Below, one piece after another: positions 14,106 to 59,338 of a DNA stretch of 64,000 nt. The stretch spans positions 2,480,001 through 2,544,000 of the forward strand of contig NZ_CP054706.1 in NCBI RefSeq assembly GCF_016495865.1, given 5' to 3'. The notes beneath the pieces were generated by a model, which did no database searches, was not told the origin of the DNA, and saw only the letters and a list, made by a program, of their open reading frames with translations. The position numbers and the translations under genes were made by a program. The stretch's first letter is position 1. The number at the start of each line of letters is the position of its first letter. This DNA is from Salicibibacter cibi. Its GTDB lineage: Bacteria > Bacillota > Bacilli > Bacillales > Marinococcaceae.

Positions 14106-14390
14106 CAGGGACGTTGGGCTTTCACTGCGTCCCCCGAATTGAAGTTTTTTCTCTGTTCAGGGACGATAGGCCTTCACTGCGTCCCCCGAATTGAAGTTTT
14201 TTTCTCTGTTCAGGGACGTTGGACTTTCACTGCGTCCCCCAAATTGAAGTTTTTTCTCTGTTCAGGGACGTTGGACTTTCACTGCGTCCCCCGAATTGAG
14301 AGTTTTTCTCTGTTCAGGGACGATGGACTTTCACTGCGTCCCCCGAATTGAAGTTTTTTCTCTGTTCAGGGACGGTGAGCTTTCCTGCGC
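14106..14390. repeat. Tandem array, 52-bp period, five units plus a partial
   Basis: Units begin with CAGGGACG at 14106, 14158, 14211, 14263, 14315 and 14367 (partial). The period is 52 bp, with one unit of 53. Within each unit GGGACG and CGTCCC can form a hairpin, followed by an A/T-rich arm containing GAATTGAAGTTTTTT. Units differ by a few substitutions. The array sits between convergent tmcAL and ylbL. The 160 bp from 14391 to ylbL show no gene. Confidence 0.9.
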
Positions 14391-50127: not shown

Positions 50128-50276
50128 TATGCAGTTCTCTCCTTAGTCTAAGCAGATATCTTTAACTTTTCGATTTTACCATATTGAGTGGGGTATCGGC
50201 AAAATTAGGGATTGGGGGGTGGTGGTAAGTAAGGGGCAGGGCGGTTCACGACGGGTTTGGTCGCCATAAACCTATC

Positions 50277-50497
50277 ATGGCGACCGAAAACAAGTTTACG
50301 ATGCGGGGTCGAGCTTCATGAACCCGTCATGGTGACCGAAAACAGGTTTACGATGCGGGGTCGGGCTTCATGGACCCGTCATGGTGACCGAAAACAGGTT
50401 TACGATGCGGGGTCGGGCTTCATGGACCCGTCATGGCGATCGAAAACAGGTTTACGATGCGGGGGCGGGCTTCATGGACCCGTCATGGCGACCGAAA
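50277..50497. repeat. Tandem array, 52-bp period, four units plus a partial
   Basis: Units start with ATGG(C/T)GA(C/T)CG at 50277, 50329, 50381, 50433 and 50485 (partial). Each contains GGTTTACGATGCGGGG and GACCCGTCATGG. Differences between units are few. A diverged piece (GACCCGTCATGGTGACTG) recurs at about 51589, on the other side of the NERD gene. It lies between typA and the NERD gene and is non-coding. Confidence 0.9.
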
Positions 50498-54363: not shown

Positions 54364-54585
54364 AAAAAAAATGGCGCATTGCCGCACGAACGGCGATGCA
54401 CCAACTGTTTCGATTTCCGGAACGCGTATAGTCATCTTGACGCGCGTTTTTTCTTGCAGGCTTCGCAATTTCCGTATAACGTTGCCATCTTATCCGCTTT
54501 GAAATGTTCAATGGTGCAGTCACATTCCGAACAAACGATCATTGCCATACCATCGCACTCCCTATGAAAGCGTTTTTAATGTGTA
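54364..54585 (-). ncRNA. sr1: SR1 dual-function small RNA
   Basis: A promoter (54591-54619), a 38-codon reading frame for SR1P and a strong terminator (GGTGCATCGCCG/CGGCAATGCGCC, then eight T) define a transcript of about 220 bases. In B. subtilis SR1 (205 nt) lies between pdhD and speA. It base-pairs with ahrC mRNA to block translation and also encodes SR1P. The place and layout match. Ends are estimated from the promoter and terminator. Confidence 0.85.
54432..54548 (-). CDS. sr1P: SR1P, GapA-binding peptide
   Basis: A 38-residue peptide with MIVCSECDCTIEHF, then KMATLYGNCEAC, which fits SR1P of other Bacilli. In B. subtilis SR1P binds glyceraldehyde-3-phosphate dehydrogenase GapA, stabilises the gapA operon mRNA and promotes RNase J1 activity. 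Four cysteines may bind zinc. The ribosome binding site AGGGAG is nine bases before the ATG at 54548. A second ATG at 54542 is possible. Confidence 0.88.
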   Translation of the reverse strand: MAMIVCSECDCTIEHFKADKMATLYGNCEACKKKRASR

Positions 54586-54619: not shown

Positions 54620-54793
54620 CCATGAATTGTATGGCACATTCCAGAGTTCGGAGGTTTCACGATACATAACTTACACGAAAATCGCCCAACCGGGTTATCG
54701 GCAGCGGTTCATGGTATCCACACTCGCGAAGGGGTCATTTCGCTTGCCAATTTCAAAAAACCACGCACCACAGCCCTGCCTTTTGTTGATTGA

Positions 54794-57226
54794 TTATAAA
54801 TAATTTAATGTTTTGGTGTTCGCCTTAATAAATTGTGAAATATCACCGGAATAAATGATTTCACCACCACTATCGCCACCACTAGGACCTAATTCAACGA
54901 TATAATCAGCTTGTTTTATCACATCTAAGTTATGTTCAATGAAGAAAAATGTATTTTCATTCTCCGTAAGTTTTTGAATAAGTTCCATAAAATGGAATAC
55001 ATCAATTTTGTGCATACCAGTTGTCGGCTCGTCTAAAATAAAAAGGTGTTTATTTCCTTTCTGCTTAGAAATTGTACTGGTAAGACGTAATCGTTGCATT
55101 TCACCACCAGATAAAGTACCTGTCCCTTGTCCAAGTAAGATATAATCAAGGTTTGTTTGGGTTAAAAGAAATAATGGTCTACTGTTTAAACCGTTTCTTT
55201 CAAAAAATTCTATCGCCTCCTTGATTGAAAACGCTAATACATCCGAGATAGAGTAATCCTCGATTTTCACATTTGAAATTTCGTCTTTGTATCTACTTCC
55301 ATGACAAGTTGAACAAGGAAGTTCCATGTTTTCAAAAAATAGTTGATTACTTTCAACTACTCCTAACCCCTGACAATTAGGACATCTTCCTTGCCCAGAA
55401 TTAAATGAGAAATCTGATACAGAATATGGTAAGTTTGAGTCTTTGGATTTTATTGCAAAAAGATATCGAATATCATCAAAAACATCTAAATAAGTTGCAA
55501 TGATAGATCTTTTGTTTCGAGTAGGTCTTTTTTGGGTAATGACAACAATGTCTTTATAGTTGTTTTTCCATTGAATAATCTCATTGTCTTTTAATTGGCT
55601 ATCGGCAATTTCTCCAAAAAGCAAACTTGATTTACCTGAACCAGAAACGCCAGTTATAACAGATAAACAGTCTGCAGGAAGTGTTAGTGATATATTTTTG
55701 AGGTTGTGCACATTTGCATGTTGTACTTCTAGTGCAAGTTGTTTTGTTTTGCGCTTATAACTAGCTTGCTGGTAGGTAGAATGATTTGATTTAAAAAGTA
55801 GTGATTGAGAATTGGTTAAAAGCTCGTCATAAGTTCCAGTTGTCACAACATTACCACCAAACTCTCCAGATCCCGGTCCGATTTCCACAATATAATCTGC
55901 TTGTTTACTAAATGCCTCATCATGTTCGATTGCTATAATAGTATTATTTCGTCCTTTTATTTCATTGATCATGGATATTAAACCTTCCGTATCGGAAGTG
56001 TGTAATCCAACTGTAGGTTCATCAAGAATAATGATTAACTCCGTCATTTGAGAGTCTAGAACAGCAGCTAATTTAATTCGTTGAGCTTCACCTCCAGAAA
56101 GAGTTGAATACTGGCGATCTAGCGATAAGTAATCAAGACCAAGCTTAGAAATCCGATTAATTTTAATTTCTATATCGAGAAGGTAATCTTTGACCAAAGA
56201 TGTAATCTGTTGATCACTTTGTTTTTTTAATTGTTGTACCCACTGTAATGCATGTTTTAAATCTCCTTTTACAATTTCAGGTAACCTGTGATTATAAACT
56301 TTTGCGGATCGACTTAAGGCATTCAGTTTTTCCCCATGACATTCAAAACATCTATCCTCTTGAACGAATTCCTTAAGATTTTTTGGTATATCTTTTTCTT
56401 CAGCTATCTTTTGCCATATTTTTGGTTCAACTCCTTCATATTTTCCTTCTGCCACTTTGGTTGGTAATGTTTCATTTTGATCTTCAGGAATTTCTGACGA
56501 ATATATGCCTTTTTTTAATAAATCAAATTGCTCTTGAGTAAACTCTCCTAGGGGGATATCTTTGGGAATAGGAACGCTAAGGTGTTTTAAGAGAGCATTG
56601 AAAGACTTAAGTTGATAATCAGCATAATTTTTGTGCCAAGTAGCTATGCCACCGTTAAGGATTGTTTTATTTTTTTGATAGAGGCTATCTTTAATAACCA
56701 GTGATTTACCCATTCCTTTACAAGTGGGGCAAGCTCCTGCTCTAGTATTAAAAGAAAAATGTGATCTCGTTAATTTATCCATTTGATAATTACAATTCGG
56801 ACAGTGCATATAAACGTTGAACTCACCATCAATCTTTTCAGTTTCTTCCATAGAATCGCTTGCGGAAATGACCTTATGGCAATTTGGACAATTTCGCTGA
56901 TGTAATTTTTCAAAAATCATTCTTAGATCTGTATAGATATCGGTTTGTGTTCCAAGCGTTGAGCGGGGATTATCATTTCTGTCTTCTTGATCAATCATAA
57001 TTGCAGGAGATAAATTTTTGATTTCATCTACTTTCGGTTTTGGGATTCCCTGATAACTCATCGTCTCTAAATATTGTCTTTGCGATTCAATATAGATTGT
57101 ATCTTTGAGTAATGTTGTTTTTCCTGACCCTGATAATCCAGTAATAACGGTTAACTTGTTTCTTTGGATTTCCAAATCAATGTTTTTTAAATTTTTCTCA
57201 TATGCATTTTTTATTTTTATATTCAT
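54794..57226 (-). CDS. UvrA-like ABC ATPase lacking the UvrB-binding domain
   Basis: An 810-residue soluble protein with two ABC modules. Module 1 has Walker A GLSGSGKT (30-37), signature LSGGE (376-380) and Walker B ILDEP. Module 2 has GVSGSGKS (526-533), LSGGE (705-709) and ILDEP. Zinc cysteine pairs lie at 113/116, 142/145, 166/169, 293/296, 615/618 and 638/641. The region of the UvrB-binding domain is only about 45 residues, so it resembles class II UvrA (drug-resistance or damage related). It is far more AT-rich than its neighbours and faces a MerR regulator, which suggests acquisition. Confidence 0.88.
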   Translation of the reverse strand: MNIKIKNAYEKNLKNIDLEIQRNKLTVITGLSGSGKTTLLKDTIYIESQRQYLETMSYQGIPKPKVDEIKNLSPAIMIDQEDRNDNPRSTLGTQTDIYTDLRMIFEKLHQRNCPNCHKVISASDSMEETEKIDGEFNVYMHCPNCNYQMDKLTRSHFSFNTRAGACPTCKGMGKSLVIKDSLYQKNKTILNGGIATWHKNYADYQLKSFNALLKHLSVPIPKDIPLGEFTQEQFDLLKKGIYSSEIPEDQNETLPTKVAEGKYEGVEPKIWQKIAEEKDIPKNLKEFVQEDRCFECHGEKLNALSRSAKVYNHRLPEIVKGDLKHALQWVQQLKKQSDQQITSLVKDYLLDIEIKINRISKLGLDYLSLDRQYSTLSGGEAQRIKLAAVLDSQMTELIIILDEPTVGLHTSDTEGLISMINEIKGRNNTIIAIEHDEAFSKQADYIVEIGPGSGEFGGNVVTTGTYDELLTNSQSLLFKSNHSTYQQASYKRKTKQLALEVQHANVHNLKNISLTLPADCLSVITGVSGSGKSSLLFGEIADSQLKDNEIIQWKNNYKDIVVITQKRPTRNKRSIIATYLDVFDDIRYLFAIKSKDSNLPYSVSDFSFNSGQGRCPNCQGLGVVESNQLFFENMELPCSTCHGSRYKDEISNVKIEDYSISDVLAFSIKEAIEFFERNGLNSRPLFLLTQTNLDYILLGQGTGTLSGGEMQRLRLTSTISKQKGNKHLFILDEPTTGMHKIDVFHFMELIQKLTENENTFFFIEHNLDVIKQADYIVELGPSGGDSGGEIIYSGDISQFIKANTKTLNYL

Positions 57227-57300
57227 TTCATCACCTCATCATCGATGATATCAGATTGAAGCAACATTCTATTTTCAAATAAAAAAATATTGATATATCC

Positions 57301-57322
57301 CGTTTTATGATAGAATAAAACG
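57301..57322. promoter_or_regulatory. Palindromic operator between uvrA-like and merR-like genes
   Basis: CGTTTTAT-GATAGA-ATAAAACG is a perfect 8-bp inverted repeat with a 6-bp centre. It overlaps a TAGAAT -10-like box for the merR gene. It is a likely binding site for the double-HTH regulator, acting on both divergent genes. Confidence 0.65.
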
Positions 57323-57362
57323 AACTAAGGACTTTAAGGTTTTATTTAAAGGTTGTTAAAGA

Positions 57363-58052
57363 ATGGGATATACGATGAAACAAATGATTGCGTATATTGG
57401 TGTAAGTAATACGACTTTGAAAAGGTATGAGAGTAATGGATTAATACCTTCTGTTTTCTATACAAAAGGAAATCATAGAAGATACGAAGAAATTCATTTA
57501 ATTGCCTTTAGAACAATCCGAAACCTTTTAAAAGGTTTCGACATACCAGTAGCGTATCAATTGATGAAATTAGCAAAGGAAAAGAAGTTCACAGAAGCCA
57601 ACTGGATCATTGCCCAATCTCAAAAAGAATTGGTAAAGAAAAAAGAAACACTAAAAATGCATAAAGAATTTATTTTGTCTCTCCCTCAAAAACCACTGAA
57701 AAAAACTACCATGCGCATAGGTGAATTAGCAAAATTCGCTAATATTGAGACATCAACGATTCGCTATTGGGAAGAAAGAGGACTTATAAAAGGGATTAGA
57801 GATGAAAGCAGTGGTTATCGTTTTTATGAAAAAAATGAGGTGCGAAAAACCATCATTATTTCTCTTTTGCGAAAAAGTGTCCGTTATCTTGACGAAATAA
57901 AAATAATTGTTGATGAGATAAATGACGAAAGCCTCTCCAGCATCAGGAAACATTATACCGTTGCTAATAGAGAACTGGATATTCATCTTGAGAAGCAATT
58001 AGAGTCCATTTCTGTTTATATGGTTTATTGTGAGAAGTTAAGACAGCATTAA
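57363..58052 (+). CDS. MerR-family regulator with two HTH domains
   Basis: A 229-residue protein with two MerR-type winged helices. The first is at about 3-70 (MKQMIAYIGVSNTTLKRYESNGLIP), the second at about 117-182 (MRIGELAKFANIETSTIRYWEERGLI). The helix between them is Lys/Glu-rich. There is no separate drug-binding domain, so the signal it senses is unclear. It is divergent from the UvrA-like gene, with a palindrome between them. It is AT-rich like its partner. AAAGG lies ten bases before the ATG. Confidence 0.85.
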   Translation: MGYTMKQMIAYIGVSNTTLKRYESNGLIPSVFYTKGNHRRYEEIHLIAFRTIRNLLKGFDIPVAYQLMKLAKEKKFTEANWIIAQSQKELVKKKETLKMHKEFILSLPQKPLKKTTMRIGELAKFANIETSTIRYWEERGLIKGIRDESSGYRFYEKNEVRKTIIISLLRKSVRYLDEIKIIVDEINDESLSSIRKHYTVANRELDIHLEKQLESISVYMVYCEKLRQH

Positions 58053-58055
58053 ATA

Positions 58056-58340
58056 GGGACTGCTGAATAACGGAAAAAGACTGGCACATAAGCATTTTTC
58101 GTTGGTGTTGTCGAAGCTGGATGCAAGGAATTCCATCCTATAAACAAAAAACCCTTGCACTTCTGGCAACGTACGGAGGGATGGTGCTGCAATAGCGAGA
58201 CTCCAGCGGAAAAACGGACGCGTCAAGCCCCCGCAGCGCCGGTTTTGCGCGAGGAGGCTTGACCGTTCGTCCGCGGAAAGCGAAGCCATGGAAGCGCCAT
58301 CCCGACTTCAGCTGATAGCTGCATGTTGTTCAGCATTCCC
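58056..58340. mobile_element. 285-bp MITE-like element (type B copy 1)
   Basis: The ends GGGACTGCTGAATAAC and GTTGTTCAGCATTCCC are inverted repeats with two mismatches in 16. Both ends are bordered by TA, the target duplication typical of IS630/Tc1-mariner transposition. It has no transposase. The core contains GAGACTCC, GAGGAGGCTTGA and CCGCGGAAAGCGAAG, similar in design to the type A repeats. It lies four bases after the merR stop. A fragment is found at 11471-11550. Confidence 0.8.
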
Positions 58341-58365
58341 TAAATATGTAGATATAAATATGTAG

Positions 58366-58404
58366 ATAAGAAGGTTGATGTATACTTGCTTCCCTGCCAA
58401 AAAA
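58366..58404 (-). repeat. Small repeat remnant R7
   Basis: AAGGTTGATGTATACTTGCTTCCCTGCCAAAA matches the second-hairpin end of the small repeat family. Only this part is left. Confidence 0.6.
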
Positions 58405-58428
58405 AGAGATACTGCCTTTTGCAATATC
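58399..58428 (-). terminator. Terminator downstream of the deacetylase gene
   Basis: On the minus strand GATATTGC and GCAGTATC with a 5-base loop, then TCTTTTTTT. The T run is supplied by the small-repeat remnant. Confidence 0.6.
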
Positions 58429-58498
58429 CCTTCATCTTGAGCACTGCTTGAAAACGTTTTTATAAGGCTTCTTCACGTTTTCTTCTGCTGGCTTTACC

Positions 58499-59338
58499 TC
58501 ACTCATTTTCCTGTTCAATTTCTGTGGGGTCGATAAAGTCGTAACCCTCGTCTTCGAGACCTAAAATAATGTCTTCAAGCGCTTCGTTCGTCCACTCCCG
58601 GTCATGCATCAGAAGATTGGCGCCGTTTTGCAAGTGTTCCGTCTCCACCATAATCTCCGCCAATGCATCAGGATCGGTATATTCTTCTTCCCAATCAAAT
58701 CCGTAGGTCCAATTCATGCCGAGCATCTCTTCTTCTTCCACGACTTCCCAGCTATGATCAGTATTCGCTCCGTGAGGTGCCCGGAAAAAGTTTGGTCTTT
58801 CCCCGGTGATCCGTTCGATTTCATCGTTCAAATCAACGATTTCATCTTCCACCTCTTCCTCGGAGATCTCCTGTAAATTTGCATGGGTCATGGTATGGTT
58901 TCCGATTTCATGTCCATGCTCCATGATCTCAAGGAGCTGTTCTTCTCCCTCTTCATCATCAATAAAATGGTGATTGATGAAAAAGATCGCGGTCACATCT
59001 AGCTCTTCAAGTGTTTCCGCCATCTCAACGCCGTGTTCATCCGGCGCATCATCGATGGTAATCAAGACCGCTTCTTCTTCGGCATCGTCAATGGGCTCTA
59101 ACCCCCAGTTATTTTCATTAAGCGTATACGCCGGTTCAGGCTCTTCTTCCGTATGTTCCTCTTCGGAAGGCTCTGTTGAACCATTTTCATCCTCTTCTTC
59201 CGATTCGTTTTCTTCTTCAATAACCGTGTTCTCTCCCTCCTCGTTCTCCTCCACGCTTACGTCTTCTTCCGCTTGTTGACATGCAGCGAGCACGAGCATT
59301 GCCGTGAACCAACAAAGCATTGCTTTAGACAAATGCAA
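58499..59338 (-). CDS. Polysaccharide deacetylase lipoprotein (NodB domain)
   Basis: A 279-residue exported lipoprotein (lipobox LAAC, cysteine about residue 20). A linker of some 60 residues is almost entirely Glu, Asp and Ser. The NodB domain has TIDDAP (usually TFDDGP), the zinc site HTMTH in HEIGNHTMTH, RAPHG (the RxPxG motif) and LLMHD. It probably deacetylates peptidoglycan or chitin-like chains. The TTG start has GGGGGA eight bases upstream. The whole protein is very acidic. Confidence 0.88.
   Translation of the reverse strand: MHLSKAMLCWFTAMLVLAACQQAEEDVSVEENEEGENTVIEEENESEEEDENGSTEPSEEEHTEEEPEPAYTLNENNWGLEPIDDAEEEAVLITIDDAPDEHGVEMAETLEELDVTAIFFINHHFIDDEEGEEQLLEIMEHGHEIGNHTMTHANLQEISEEEVEDEIVDLNDEIERITGERPNFFRAPHGANTDHSWEVVEEEEMLGMNWTYGFDWEEEYTDPDALAEIMVETEHLQNGANLLMHDREWTNEALEDIILGLEDEGYDFIDPTEIEQENE

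Follow-up and report, generated by a model that had tools for sequence, protein, structure and literature searches.

Genes for a UvrA-like ATPase and a tandem MerR regulator recur as divergent neighbours with conserved promoter-proximal sites

Does a gene for a UvrA-like ATPase that faces a gene for a MerR-type regulator in the AT-rich part of a Salicibibacter cibi contig belong together with it, and what would such a unit do? Both genes lie in a stretch of 64,000 nucleotides (NCBI RefSeq NZ_CP054706.1, positions 2,480,001 to 2,544,000), which is referred to as the window and provides the numbering used here. They are divergent, with uvrA on the minus strand, merR on the plus strand and an intergenic region of 136 bp. 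An earlier interpretation of the letters alone, termed the sequence-only reading, had taken them for an acquired resistance or damage-response unit. We show that the pairing is real, as it recurs in divergent orientation with shared sites near the promoters. The best explanation, to which we give a probability of roughly 60% on the basis of sequence comparison, would be an acquired, self-regulated resistance unit of a TioE-like MerR regulator and a UvrB-independent UvrA.

Tandem MerR genes were surveyed in 61 genomes of relatives, 397 genomes of the order, 398 of the phylum, one named contig and two plasmid records. For the relatives only the best places were taken, the remainder being mostly partial matches to one MerR domain. 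The plasmid records counted for linkage were the best two of 341; five Streptomyces or Kitasatospora records and one Enterococcus record were only viewed. The survey yielded 42 loci including that of the window, 19 with a divergent UvrA of the window type, 22 without one in the flank fetched and one with a damaged merR (L090), which was excluded from site and tree counts. Among the 19 linked loci, one uvrA is interrupted (L029) and two match in part (L076, L098). In the reverse search, with a threshold of E up to 1e-140 and two candidates scored per genome, a window-type UvrA was detected in 17 of the 397 genomes of the order, at one place each. Sixteen of these adjoin a tandem merR, 15 of them within ~400 bp, so the proposition that the two genes never co-occur does not hold. 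The 17th genome (G193) has an interrupted uvrA and its merR on another contig. Seven further window-type UvrA places were found in six genomes of the phylum sample, and at one of them (L159) the tandem merR lies directly downstream on the same strand as uvrA. The nearest pairs include that of Tetragenococcus halophilus, with matches of 74% for the regulator and 78% for UvrA, the latter interrupted; a pair from another family of the order (L063) reaches 65% and 68%, respectively. By name, regulator matches come from Lentibacillus, Corticicoccus and Staphylococcus nepalensis. In the protein searches, with the UvrAs taken from the best 120 of 7996, five regulator matches and five UvrA matches agree in the length of their longest contig (34817, 17239, 395857, 597129 and 5864), suggesting further linked pairs.

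A single clade of UvrA-linked regulators was rejected by the approximately unbiased (AU) test (19 versus 20 rows, p = 0.0003; L094 and L099 left out, L159 not added), as was a single clade of linked UvrAs (16 versus 21 rows, AU p = 1.5e-7, including 11 database proteins of unknown gene context). As the trees reject one clade of pairs, the two genes either came together on several occasions or have changed partners. The two genes might alternatively be chance neighbours without common function that were imported together on an AT-rich island. Low GC content, absence from congeners and the 22 of 42 tandem MerRs located elsewhere than beside such a UvrA would fit this idea, which we nevertheless regard as extremely improbable given the 16/17 linkage in the order, the same geometry in many genera, the shared sequence blocks, and pairs that do not form one clade. 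Among the papers listed from the open-licence literature of PubMed Central (PMC), we found none on a UvrA/tandem-MerR pair.

The UvrA-like protein matches ATP-binding cassette (ABC) ATPase families and the domain UvrA_DNA-bind (PF17755, residues 184-278, E 4.5e-9), and both of its halves carry Walker A, LSGGE, ILDEP and EHD/EHN motifs. By these matches it has the two ATPase sites and the DNA-binding insertion domain that define the UvrA superfamily. Alignment to the genome's own canonical UvrA confirmed that the UvrB-binding region is missing, as the sequence-only reading had stated, but the label of class II could not be kept. In an unrooted tree of 37 rows, canonical UvrAs (100/99), class II UvrAs (100/100) and the window group (100/100) form separate clades. 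A quick tree of 50 rows (13 added), also unrooted, again sets class II apart from the window group, here with 34 rows, and places UvrAs of Deinococcus radiodurans, Streptomyces and Pantoea in a further separate clade. Class II is represented by six rows in the first tree and eight in the second; Ecm16, DrrC (Streptomyces peucetius) and TioU are absent, with the genome's own class II gene (728 bits to 7sh1, Ecm16) as stand-in, and UvrAs of less than 780 amino acids (aa; L029, L076, L098) were excluded. A single and a repeated loss of the UvrB-binding domain cannot be told apart from unrooted trees.

The cysteines of the protein point in the same direction. C142-x2-C145 and C166-x2-C169 align with canonical cysteines of what we take to be zinc module 1, a candidate zinc site by alignment. 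Both pairs are kept in 34 of 34 window-clade rows (27 in the first alignment and 7 added), all of which show a further CxxC ahead of them. The first pair was found in none of the 12 class II-like rows (six in each of two alignments) and is incomplete in two of four canonical rows (Fusobacterium, Mesomycoplasma). Judged by these alignments and trees, the window UvrA is not of the known class II and represents a clade of its own, which keeps zinc-module-1-type cysteines and lacks the UvrB-binding domain.

The retained cysteines, together with a higher score against canonical UvrA (517 bits, 3pih) than against Ecm16 (353 bits, 7sh1), would also suit an accessory DNA-repair protein, which sees covalent lesions and works with another repair system while the MerR protein senses DNA damage or other stress. 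Class II genes located among formaldehyde-detoxification genes on one Staphylococcus and one Cytobacillus plasmid add to this, as UvrB-less UvrAs may serve adduct tolerance. Yet the domain that would contact UvrB is absent, no repair gene was recognised among the scanned facing genes of related regulators (several of which gave no family match), and one relative is located in a biosynthetic cluster, so that we consider a repair function unlikely. A cytosolic ABC ATPase that acts elsewhere than on DNA-bound drugs, e.g., on stalled ribosomes or in toxin sequestration, appears quite improbable. Many ABC-type families do match the ATPase domains, all below cut-offs, and the substrate is open; the UvrA_DNA-bind insertion domain is nonetheless present, and the signal over most of the protein length is that of UvrA.

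In the regulator, HTH_17 (residues 3-49) and MerR (117-184) were the only domains matched, which bears out the description of a facing MerR-type protein with two DNA-binding domains and no effector domain. It has the two MerR helix-turn-helix (HTH) modules without effector domain by which the TioE type is defined. In a structural model, each half appears to match a MerR DNA-binding domain plus long helix. NCBIfam scans of the window regulator and of one protein that RefSeq names TioE gave no TioE model among their matches, in a library that we did not check for such a model. Unlinked tandem MerRs face a variety of genes: Glyoxalase/Bleomycin-resistance proteins (L062, L083), ABC ATPases (L094, L099), an Imm-5-like gene (L097), a partner weakly like alpha/beta hydrolases (L065) and, in three of the five Streptomyces/Kitasatospora loci viewed, erythromycin esterase. 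At L082, L088 and L089 they face DUF6022 genes with a block 1 site (see below) in between, an arrangement that offers a lead to the function of DUF6022. The facing genes of L067, L072, L081, L092 and L096, each scanned against one or two libraries, gave no match. In the regulator tree, the window protein nests with regulators whose partner is not a UvrA. Some facing genes in this tree were labelled by eye, i.e., L067, L072 and L081 (VOC-like), L064 and L096 (hydrolase), and L085 and L091-L093 (DUF6022), and these genes have no family match from library scans. The partners of related regulators differ widely and are often of a detoxification type, while the kind of site stays the same; the regulator itself is therefore probably the sensor of the inducer.

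Comparison of the intergenic regions revealed two conserved blocks (Table 1). Block 1 reads mostly AACcTTAgcAyTTGCATTAATGTTRTA on the effector strand, with half-sites AACnTTA and TAAnGTT in most relatives, and across loci it forms a weak dyad that overlaps a conserved -10 element (TAnnAT). When scored with matrices that exclude the locus in question, near-copies of it remaining, block 1 upstream of merR scored highest of all sites in the locus for 37 of 41 loci, comprising all 19 linked loci and 18 of the 22 unlinked ones; L030, L031, L066 and L099 were missed. For 19 of the 22 unlinked loci it was never equalled in 100 resampled upstream regions. In linked loci, block 2 (CTTTAAkGTTTTAnnnnAAkGTT) precedes the merR start by 30-81 bases. 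Its score was not attained by any shuffle in 13 of the 17 linked loci scored, L080 and L098 not being scored, and in 10 of the 22 unlinked loci on the same strand. Common descent makes related sequences resemble each other, and the stronger evidence comes from the unlinked loci, whose regulators are ~25-40% identical to that of the window. Seven of eight window-clade UvrAs without an adjacent divergent merR are without block 1 (best score 1.5). The uvrA of G193, with its merR on a separate contig, carries block 1 at 33.7 bits, which suggests control in trans. At other places in their stretches, L159 has a site of 15.5 bits and L163 one of 12.9 bits.

A perfect 8-6-8 palindrome between the genes, highlighted in the sequence-only reading as a candidate site of the regulator, is exact. 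As an operator it was rejected, being neither conserved nor rare: the closest pairs, L029 and L063, do not have it, the elements retained among relatives being blocks 1 and 2, and when the intergenic region was resampled 2000 times (first-order), 149 of the resamplings contained at least one perfect 8-bp inverted repeat with a loop of up to 10. The window contains 60 such repeats, nested ones counted, and no other site matching the palindrome with up to 3 mismatches.

Table 1 Features of the uvrA/merR locus, in window coordinates.
Feature	Position	Strand	Basis or remark
UvrA-like ATPase, 810 aa	54794..57226	-	intact open reading frame; domain matches, alignment, trees
Putative uvrA -10, TATCAT on the minus strand	57245..57250	-	at the conserved TAnnAT position; overlaps block 1 at its end
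Block 1, 27 bp, conserved within the uvrA promoter, likely operator (predicted)	57249..57275	-	intergenic comparison, matrix scoring
Putative merR promoter, TTGATA (57290-57295) and TAGAAT (57311-57316)	57290..57316	+	direct reading; weak, 15-bp spacer non-standard
Perfect 8-6-8 palindrome	57301..57322		overlaps putative merR -10; not kept in relatives
Block 2, likely autoregulatory site (predicted), between putative merR promoter and merR start	57332..57354	+	intergenic comparison, shuffles
TioE-like tandem MerR regulator, 229 aa	57363..58052	+	intact open reading frame; halves ~1-111 and 113-229; no effector domain
Miniature inverted-repeat transposable element (MITE), 285 bp	58056..58340		copy search; outside the module; 6-bp duplication TAAATA at 58050-58055 and 58341-58346
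Acquired insert, MITE included	54653..58498		no blastn match at the corresponding place in three congeners

In the proposed resistance unit, the tandem MerR would bind block 1 as a single-chain pseudo-dimer and activate uvrA in the manner of MerR proteins, and it may bind block 2, downstream of its own promoter, and limit its own synthesis. The UvrA-like ATPase would scan DNA, recognise bulky non-covalent ligands such as intercalators or groove binders and, in the way suggested for Ecm16, free the DNA of them at the expense of ATP and independently of UvrB. Inferred parts of this scheme are the inducer, the substrate, the switching itself and the resistance function. One window-clade UvrA (L160) sits among genes for a non-ribosomal peptide synthetase module, a glycosyltransferase, an aminotransferase and a carbamoyltransferase; the biosynthetic neighbourhood of L160, L165 and L166 is a possible source of a DNA-binding product.

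Several observations weigh against the resistance unit. At the level of the sites, a promoter activated by a MerR protein would hold a dyad between -35 and -10 elements spaced by 19-20 bp. Block 1 shows no clear -35 across loci, and in the window clade it keeps TTGC and the -10 but deviates in the left half-site; the window's own copy was reached in 1 of 100 resamplings. A strict block 1 pattern, which does not match the window's own block 1, gave two sites in the genome and two in the reversed control. Outside the order, six of the seven window-clade UvrAs are without an adjacent tandem merR. Two genomes with no merR beside uvrA (G751, G431) have a tandem merR elsewhere and, unlike G193, no block 1 at uvrA, and block 1 is likewise missing at L159, where merR follows uvrA on the same strand. 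No function is known for many of the genes that face unlinked tandem MerRs. The closest stand-in for Ecm16, the genome's own class II gene, falls in a different clade from the window UvrA, and the window lineage, which both trees place on a long branch, may have shifted in function. For no member of the window UvrA clade did we find an experiment on binding, induction or resistance.

Acquisition of the AT-rich unit is supported by both composition and context. The GC content is 33.4% for uvrA, 33.0% for merR and 26.5% for the intergenic region, compared to 46.1% for the whole window, and GC at third codon positions is 24% and 30% in the two genes and 37-54% in eight flanking genes, in agreement with the lower GC noted earlier. 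In three of three congeners the flanking genes lie close together, with ~40-400 bases of other intergenic sequence between them and nothing of the insert detected there by blastn. Given this missing counterpart and the linked pairs in many genomes, the idea of an acquired UvrA/MerR module stands. No direct repeats of at least 14 bases span both module ends, only internal matches being found; a 14-bp tandem pair lies at 58341-58368. Carriage by viruses or plasmids was not supported: phage records gave no match to the regulator, the one protein of the pair searched against them, no relative of the window UvrA was found in viral contigs, and no plasmid record holds the module DNA, two matching ~100 bp of uvrA only.

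The MITE at the end of merR is real and starts three, not four, bases after the stop codon. Its left TAAATA holds that codon, and the reading frame was therefore left intact. At least 40 copies, the window's included, are present in the genome at identity of at least 94% (40 of 176 candidates scored). The 30 loci viewed have flanking duplications 6-7 bases long, in most cases TAnnTA; L107, L108 and L115 show a one-base difference. A role of this high-copy element in the module, or as its mobiliser, is thus unsupported. The suggested position between sr1 and the pdh region needs amendment, as a polysaccharide-deacetylase gene (58499-59338) separates the unit from the pdh genes. Rfam gave no match for SR1 RNA at gathering score near the unit; a short open reading frame at ~54430-54560 on the minus strand presumably resembles SR1P, as judged by eye. 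Apart from this locus, the window holds two arrays of 52-bp tandem repeats, at 50275-50497 (4.3 copies) and 14106-14389 (5.5 copies).

Producers of DNA-binding drugs are known to have UvrB-independent UvrAs as self-resistance genes, whose mechanism is still to be settled. A separate UvrA lineage with a dedicated regulator in Bacillota would offer a second, genetically simple system for studying it. With its conserved sites the regulator lends itself to direct tests, and its inducer would give a clue to what the ATPase acts on. Tentatively, and with somewhat less than even confidence, we envisage a modular resistance kit in Bacillota, in which one family of single-chain MerR pseudo-dimers sharing an operator code took over diverse detoxification genes on several occasions. 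These would include UvrB-independent UvrAs of a separate lineage that keeps the zinc module and clears DNA of bound compounds. If true, an operator recognisable beside regulators ~25-40% identical to that of the window would make a hidden resistome readable from sequence alone.

Among known systems, Ecm16 (PDB 7sh1) and DrrC, both class II UvrAs, are alike in having two nucleotide-binding domains and a DNA-binding insertion domain but no UvrB-binding domain. PMC10192343 and PMC10413001 report that both confer resistance to DNA intercalators without UvrB, and zinc-binding module 1 is stated to be absent in Ecm16 and UvrA2 in the former. In contrast, the window UvrA belongs to a separate clade (Ecm16 itself not being in the trees), keeps the four cysteines aligned with zinc module 1 plus the further CxxC, and adjoins a tandem MerR, in Bacillota. 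As a separate observation on class II, such genes on a Cytobacillus (L151) and a Staphylococcus plasmid (L152) lie near those for formaldehyde dehydrogenase, hexulose-6-phosphate synthase and S-formylglutathione hydrolase, which hints at a role in aldehyde damage. L172, taken for D. radiodurans UvrA2 by its host and length, and UvrA-like proteins of 821-822 aa from Streptomyces also lack the UvrB-binding domain at similar length (821-845 aa), but form their own clade and miss the first zinc cysteine pair. By length, MtrX (828 aa) and CmrX (826 aa), as given in PMC10192343, might belong to this group.

For the regulator, the closest comparison is with TioE-family proteins so named in RefSeq from Streptomyces and Kitasatospora, which likewise have two MerR HTH modules and no effector domain. 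TioE is part of the thiocoraline cluster. The two proteins so named are each divergent from a resistance-type gene; members of the family are ~25-29% identical to the window regulator, whose partner is a UvrA. In the model, each half of the window regulator appears to correspond to the MerR DNA-binding domain and long helix of CueR, BmrR and BrlR, the difference being that it would hold both protomers in one chain, with no ligand-binding domain after them.

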